From the NCBI RefSeq assembly GCF_002127655.1, contig NZ_NEHB01000001.1:128854-171740 (forward strand): DNA of 42,887 bases. The letters are read 5' to 3'. The notes beneath the pieces are model-generated. The model did not search any database. It had not been told where the DNA came from and saw only the letters and a list, made by a program, of their open reading frames with translations. Within the stretch, counting starts at the first letter, position 1, and every line of letters starts with the position of its first letter. Position numbers and translations under genes: made by a program. Of this stretch, positions 1 through 42,887 are shown in pieces. The DNA is from Janthinobacterium sp. GW456P (lineage in GTDB: Bacteria; Pseudomonadota; Gammaproteobacteria; Burkholderiales; Burkholderiaceae_D).

Positions 1-137
1 TGCTTCAGCAGCCATGCGTTGAGTGCGGCGAATCCTTGGTAATTGTTCTCGACAACCTTGTTACGATGCTTGCCGTTGGGCAGGCGCAGCGCGCAGTCGA
101 GCTTGGCCTTGGCAACGTCGATTCCTAAATGAAACAT
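1..137 (-). CDS. IS110-family transposase, N-terminal fragment
   Basis: The first 45 residues are visible; the rest lies beyond the window edge. The protein begins MFHLGIDVAKAKLDCALRLP, the opening of the RuvC-like DEDD recombinase domain, and D7 in GIDVAK should be the first catalytic acidic residue. The ATG is preceded by GAGGAG at good spacing, which fixes the start. IS110 recombinases use a RuvC-like domain and a C-terminal serine-containing domain to insert the element at sites chosen by the bridge RNA. Whether the gene is intact cannot be judged here. Confidence 0.85.
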   Translation of the reverse strand, partial: MFHLGIDVAKAKLDCALRLPNGKHRNKVVENNYQGFAALNAWLLK

Positions 138-154
138 GCTGTGCTCCTCTTGCG

Positions 155-398
155 ATCTACCTTGCAAATACGGGCTAACCGGCAGGCCGGTGCCAAAGAT
201 ACTGTCCGATCTTGACATGGAGGATGGGTAACTGGTGCGAGATCTACGGAGCTGGCTCGGGGCCTAAGGGCGGATACGGCATCCAGTTACCCGGTCTTGA
301 TATGCCTATCAAGATTGAGATCTACGGAGCTGGCTCGGGGCCTAAGGGCGGATACGGCATCCAGTTACCCGGTCTTGATATGCCTATCAAGATTTTGA
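155..398 (-). ncRNA. Candidate IS110 bridge RNA with duplicated target-binding arm
   Basis: This is the transposase leader. Read 5' to 3' on the minus strand it contains a small hairpin (CTTGATA/TATCAAG, 374-391), a target-loop arm, the same hairpin and arm again (296-313, 239-292), one closing strand (226-235, pairing with 283-292 or 361-370), then a donor-loop region with GGACAGTATC (198-207), a short hairpin (178-191) and CCGTATTTGCAAGG (163-176 and flank). As I remember the IS621 bridge RNA, it shares ATGCCGTATC, CGTAGAT, GGACAGTATC and CCGTATTTGCAAGG in the same order. The ends are approximate. The role (pairing with target and donor DNA) is family knowledge; the duplication is seen directly. 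Confidence 0.75.
239..394. repeat. Exact 78-bp tandem duplication inside the bridge RNA region
   Basis: Positions 239-316 and 317-394 are identical. Each unit carries the upstream hairpin, one strand of the target-loop stem (CCAGTTACCC at 283 and 361), and both presumed target guides (266-275 and 244-251 in unit 1). The other strand of the stem (GGGTAACTGG, 226-235) occurs once only, so only one copy of the arm can close at a time. Confidence 0.95.
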
Positions 399-450
399 CA
401 GCGGTCGATACCGTTCGCAATACCACGAACGGCATGAGGGGAATAATACA

Positions 451-488
451 AGGTCGGATTAGCGCGGCGACGCCACGCGTAATCCGAC
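451..488. repeat. REP palindrome, copy 1 (interrupted by the IS110 element)
   Basis: GTCGGATTA (454-462 region) pairs with TAATCCGAC (480-488) across a GC-rich loop. This type of REP is common in proteobacterial intergenic DNA. On the minus strand it ends ATCCGACCT, after which the expected ACG of an intact copy is replaced by the IS110 left end. Confidence 0.8.
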
Positions 489-42684: not shown

Positions 42685-42887
42685 AAAAAACGTCCAGTGC
42701 CAGGCGCCAAGCCGAAGACAGTACGAACGTACGGCAAGGCGCAGGCAACGCACTTTTGGACAGGCGTTTAGTCAGCATAAAAAAACGTCCAGTGCCAGGC
42801 GCCAAGCCGAAGACAGTACGAACGTACGGCAAGGCGCAGGCAACGCACTTTTGGACAGGCGTTTAGTCAGCATAAAAAAACGTCCAG
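42685..42887. repeat. 95-bp palindromic repeat in tandem, continuing past window end
   Basis: The unit starting AAAAAACGTCCAGTGC occurs at 42685 and again with exact 95-bp period (CGTCCAG at 42691, 42786 and 42881). Two units are complete and a third begins at the window end. Each contains the inverted ends GTCCA-GTGC/GCAC-TTT-TGGAC, an AGGCGCC segment and the small hairpin GTACGAACGTAC. It is the same family as 11593-11694. Confidence 0.9.

Follow-up and report, generated by a model that had tools for sequence, protein, structure and literature searches.

The left end of an IS110 element at the start of the window

The window, the whole 42,887-nt stretch of DNA that was analysed, corresponds to G000:C1:128854-171740 of a Janthinobacterium draft genome (G000; 6,269,203 bases in 78 contigs), and the base preceding it is an N. 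Its first 581 nt hold the left part of an IS110 insertion sequence, read on the minus strand, together with the target into which the element is inserted. Beyond the transposase start, outside the window, the contig is misassembled, with Ns and repeated chunks. The features are as follows.

1-137, minus strand: first 45 codons of the IS110 transposase gene (translation MFHLGIDVAKAK...), which runs off the window
161-164, minus strand: CAAG, predicted right donor guide, reverse complement of the left-end CTTG
197-205, minus strand: ACAGTATCT, predicted left donor guide, identical to the element's right end
226-235, minus strand: CCAGTTACCC, closing strand of the target-loop stem, present once
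239-316, minus strand: unit 2, adjoining the closing strand and equal to element positions 58-135 of an intact relative; hairpin 295-314, stem strand 283-292, left target guide 267-275, right target guide 244-248
317-394, minus strand: unit 1, exact copy of unit 2 and likely an assembly duplicate; hairpin 373-392, stem strand 361-370, guides 345-353 and 322-326
395-451, minus strand: the element's left end as far as the unit (element positions 1-57); base 395 is an A/C site
451-452, minus strand: CT core of the left insertion junction; left junctions read ATCCGAC-CT in 32 of 35 loci
451-581, no strand assigned: REP-like inverted-repeat insertion target, with inverted repeats 451-464/568-581 and 476-492/544-560

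A repeat search of the window found the two 78-nt units at 239-316 and 317-394 to be 100% identical and arranged head to tail. The run of identity is exactly 78 nt, so the unit borders are unambiguous, and a chance origin of an exact repeat of this length is far too improbable. Read on the minus strand, each unit comprises a hairpin (TCTTGATAGGCATATCAAGA) on its 5′ side, a strand (GGGTAACTGG) of the 10-bp stem, and two guide-like segments, ATCCGCCCT and CGTAG. The junction between the units reads ...GTAGATCTC followed by AATCTTGATAGG, where a one-unit reading would give ...GTAGATCTC followed by GCACCAGTTACC. The original prediction described an exact 78-bp tandem duplication over the hairpin, one stem strand and both target guides, with which the letters agree, and a closing strand present once, which is borne out at 226-235. 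At the far end of the window, a 95-bp tandem array (42685-42887) runs off the end beside an N of the contig, and slightly diverged copies continue.

The leader as a predicted bridge RNA

The protein of an intact relative (L054) scored above the cut-offs of PF01548, PF02371 and NF033542 and matched the solved ISCro4 and IS621 transposases. ISCro4 (9t56) is the closest solved protein (E 1.1e-101 over residues 4-317) in this comparison of proteins, and the solved IS621 chain, with which the DEDD transposase is shared, follows at E 3.1e-101. According to the IS621 description (PMC11208160), that element resembles the one analysed here in having a bridge RNA in a long left end with the target loop ahead of the donor loop, a CT core and a REP-type target; its target reads ATCAGGCCTAC, compared with ATCCGACCTAC here, and the window's element has other guides and another host genus. 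ISPpu9, ISPpu10 and ISPa11, also of the IS110 family, are inserted in REP sequences as here, in other hosts and other REPs, a likeness drawn from their description in PMC1525189; we use the name REP for resemblance to such REP-targeting elements (PMC1525189).

If the leader encodes a bridge RNA, its guides should follow the targets of the individual elements. The sample for this comparison comprised 39 leaders (25 of 80 loci, 9 of 10 and five Janthinobacterium copies), of which two without the left-end motif were dropped; among the remaining 37, L098 and L100 are the same places as L293 and L294. For each element, a nine-base stretch starting one base past the GGATGCCG-like motif was set against the nine bases of target sequence at its own left junction. 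Over 26 distinct pairs, the left target guide matched its own target at a mean of 6.15 of 7 non-core positions. Shuffled guide-target pairs gave a mean of 3.43 and a maximum of 4.62, and 0 of 100,000 shuffles reached 6.15, in a procedure that retains the relatedness of the elements and involves 18 distinct guides. Misfits were seen in L293 (4 of 7), L101 (3), L119 (5) and L120 (3). L293, from Undibacterium flavidum (G251), has the guide ACCCGCCCT and the target GCACACCCT, and the guide of its sister copy L294 in the same genome, GCGCACCCT, fits its own target fully; the L293 guide may have been altered after insertion.

The Janthinobacterium guide ATCCGCCCT is one base off the target ATCCGACCT in all five leaders examined (L054, L059, L068, L074 and L087). 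This constant mismatch between the guide and the common target, a difference from IS621, seems to be tolerated; zero to two mismatches are usual for natural guides according to PMC11208160. The predicted donor guides fit the element's own ends, ACAGTATCT being the right end and CAAG the complement of the left-end CTTG. CAAGG is invariant across 29 aligned leaders, and the donor-guide role of CAAG follows from the IS621 model (PMC11208160). The interval from the left end to the transposase gene, where a bridge RNA is predicted to be, contains the guides and stems.

The stems were scored on 29 of the 37 leaders, omitting six near-duplicates or repeats and the longer L123 and L129. Paired cells amounted to 89.0%, compared with 72.1% after shuffling, and the covariation score was 0.550, compared with 0.231 after shuffling and at most 0.157 for slid versions of the structure. 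That structure was taken from row 1, so the comparison with the slid versions is biased in its favour. Changes on both sides were found in 22 of 25 stem pairs, and the target-loop stem (helix 2) covaries, with 91.7% of cells paired in the 29 leaders. The one-unit RNA folded with z = -1.92 (7 of 200 shuffles fold as well). The fold of the two-unit RNA was weak (z = -1.38; 17 of 200 shuffles as good), and in it the closing strand is predicted to pair with unit 2 to give the arm, unit 1 forming separate hairpins upstream. At gathering scores the window matched no Rfam family, in a release (Rfam 15) that may lack a bridge-RNA family. Elsewhere, L287 and L288 (G071) carry a tandem run of approximately 17-nt ttttgaagttgtcttag-like units between the left end and the bridge RNA.

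Together, guide-target matching, stem covariation and protein matches agree with the earlier identification of an IS110 left end with an IS621-like bridge RNA, and the leader is a well supported prediction of that IS110/IS621 type from sequence. That the leader is no bridge RNA and its hairpins are incidental would fit the Rfam result and a one-unit fold only modestly above its shuffles; guides that track targets across relatives, stem pairs changed on both sides and a protein closely related to IS621 all speak against it, and we regard it as very improbable. The element sits in a REP-like palindrome, inserted at ATCCGAC followed by the CT core and AC. By homology with IS621, the RNA would bind this site through its two target guides and the joined ends of the element through its two donor guides, with strand exchange by the DEDD transposase at the CT core.

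Copies of the element in relatives and in the draft

Both ends of the element were located in 32 of the 35 loci bearing the left-end motif, at a spacing of 1,212 to 1,214 bp. A single GGGTAACTGG and a single CCAGTTACCC were present in 34 of the 35, the closing strand being substituted in L086. The left junction is ATCCGACCT at 32 of the 35 loci, with ACCCGACCT at two and ATCCAACCT at one. In the 32 loci with a located right end, the end reads ...ACAGTATCT and the junction CTAC without exception, followed by G (20), C (7), A (4) or T (1).

A 36th locus, L066 (G029:C1:741160-743400), lacks the exact left-end motif and is a short relic from which the transposase is gone. Here the left donor guide is where the left end and the target-binding half of the bridge RNA meet the right target directly (...GGACAGTATCT followed by ACCGG). 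The left donor guide is identical to the right end of the element, and recombination across the direct repeat that they make up would delete the gene. A mini-element joint of this kind had one match in 392 family genomes; four matches to the mini-element pattern in viral contigs proved to be unrelated sequence.

Searching 40 genomes of the genus with the 181-nt one-unit leader of contig C56 gave 52 match rows in eight genomes. Positions 1-181 were covered unbroken in 38 rows; the other 14 comprised six in the window's own draft and eight in another draft, G023. In the four genomes assembled into one or two contigs, all 32 copies (5, 9, 5 and 13) matched the one-unit leader in one piece. Among 392 genomes sampled from the family, 33 had some match to the leader and gene start; at most two candidates were scored per genome, so this sample says little about further copies. 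The leader had no match among plasmids, and a 31-letter junction pattern had 0 matches in viral contigs.

Scoring of 40 of 163 first-look candidates in the window's draft gave six left and six right ends of the element, and more are possible. All of these lie at contig edges or in copies bearing Ns (C1 and C7), and the genome holds at least six copies. Over their opening 134-135 bases, the six left ends differ solely at element position 57, which is A in C1, C42, C31 and C26 and C in C56 and C7. The left border of the repeated unit is the base after this A/C site. Its right border is the last base of C42, lies one base before the end of C31 and one past the end of C26, and is two bases ahead of the N gap of C7. 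Only C56 crosses a single unit into the closing strand; it stops 37 bases past the unit, and these 37 bases are those that follow unit 2 in the window.

The unit scan covered 42 loci, made up of 36 of 45 places outside the draft and the six loci within it. One unit was found in 41 of them, in this genome and seven relatives, and two only in the window's copy (L001); five of the draft's six left ends are uninformative about a second unit, since each of them runs into Ns or breaks off no more than 37 bases from where the unit ends. The leaders from relatives likewise had a single arm motif in 37 of 37 cases, so that two arms were seen in none of the other copies or relatives scanned. The original prediction was to fall if relatives had one unit and reads revealed an assembly error; the part that concerns relatives is what we found.

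Aligned to an intact 1,213-bp element, the window's copy reads 1-135, 58-442, 58 Ns, 383-763, N and 378-1213. It therefore contains three overlapping joins, of 78, 60 and 386 nt, two of which span Ns; only the 78-nt join is without one.

Origin of the second arm

A scan for exact direct repeats of 40 nt or more with a period of 20-599 returned 13 rows in the first 400 kb of contig C1. Twelve touch an N, and the remaining one is the 78-nt leader repeat, 239 nt from an N. Genuine tandem repeats break assemblies too, so a nearby N is no proof of falsity, and the assembler may have left true repeats unresolved in some of these rows, the 95-nt array at the far end of the window being one candidate. 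No such rows were found in the last 4.7 kb of C1, 26 kb of C7 and 19.5 kb of C42. The 36 loci of relatives had repeat rows in two, namely three spaced flank repeats, none of them tandem and none in the leader.

Flush exact two-copy tandems were present at 3 of 69 contig edges, with units of 27, 66 and 122 nt, and are single in relatives:

G000:C24:1-54: two copies of 27 nt
G000:C28:1-132: two copies of 66 nt
G000:C49:1-244: two copies of 122 nt, in the right end of another copy of the IS110 element

For the 27-nt case, matches outside its own contig start no earlier than base 25, and for the 66-nt case the best relative's match starts at base 63; these late starts indicate that the extra copy is missing in relatives. 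The three edge tandems are probable assembly errors of the same kind as the 78-nt unit. Contig ends that are shared vary in length but repeatedly measure 147-148 nt, which suggests a read length of about 150 nt. A fixed k-mer overlap (k = 79) was considered, as the unit's exact 78 nt, counted from the base after the A/C site, fits k-1, but the edge repeats of 27, 66 and 122 nt differ from it. Because these lengths and the varied shared ends point to no single k, only the general reading of an overlap that was not merged was kept.

Taken together, the window very probably holds an ordinary IS621-like element with a one-arm predicted bridge RNA, whose second 78-bp arm is an artefact of assembly. 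As 41 of the 42 compared loci carry a single arm, the second is likely a stitching error of the draft. Contigs would enter each of the at least six copies a limited way and then stop, and at the window's locus a contig end and a repeat-internal contig would have been joined without merging their 78-nt overlap. We infer that the 78-nt junction is itself likely false from the one-unit copies, the two further overlapping joins and the unit borders at break points, all of which can be read directly in the assemblies. The junction carries no N, unlike 12 of the 13 repeat rows of C1, and this counts against an artefact.

The same uninterrupted junction would be expected if the duplication were real and private to this copy, having arisen by recent slippage or recombination in one of the at least six copies. 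The normal arm would then form from unit 2, leaving unit 1 as a 5′ extension of little effect, and the predicted fold, which uses unit 2 and the closing strand and sets unit 1 apart, is consistent with this. We nevertheless consider it unlikely, given two other overlapping joins across Ns in the same copy, both unit borders at assembly break points, the absence of the duplication from every other copy scanned and the weak two-unit fold. Similarly improbable is that two identical target arms ahead of one closing strand, either of which could be closed, have been caught just after duplication, with one guide yet to diverge. A duplicated arm that works and is selected, with either arm closing so as to alter or buffer target choice, could draw on the guides and stem strand being intact in both units. 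It is missing in 41 of the 42 loci, however, all 37 leaders of relatives have one arm motif, and its identical guides would confer no new specificity; we hold it to be extremely improbable. The earlier proposal that the duplicated arm is a biological feature was accordingly not sustained, as the other loci have one unit and the window's copy is misassembled elsewhere too.

The artefact reading leaves a known kind of element: a well supported Janthinobacterium member of the IS621-like IS110 group, from which this assembly alone differs by a second target arm that is likely false. The titles and abstract openings of the literature searched make no mention of a duplicated target arm, and we claim no wider absence. 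Were the duplication real, it would offer a natural route by which an IS110 element gains a new target with the old one kept, and a first look at bridge-RNA retargeting by arm duplication; its likeliest effect would be a 5′ extension of the RNA with specificity unchanged. As it stands, a false lead, a duplicated arm in the multicopy insertion sequence of a draft genome, has been removed, and exact two-copy repeats in such elements of drafts should be compared with other copies before new RNA architectures are called. The element's relatives offer 18 distinct natural guides together with the targets that they match.
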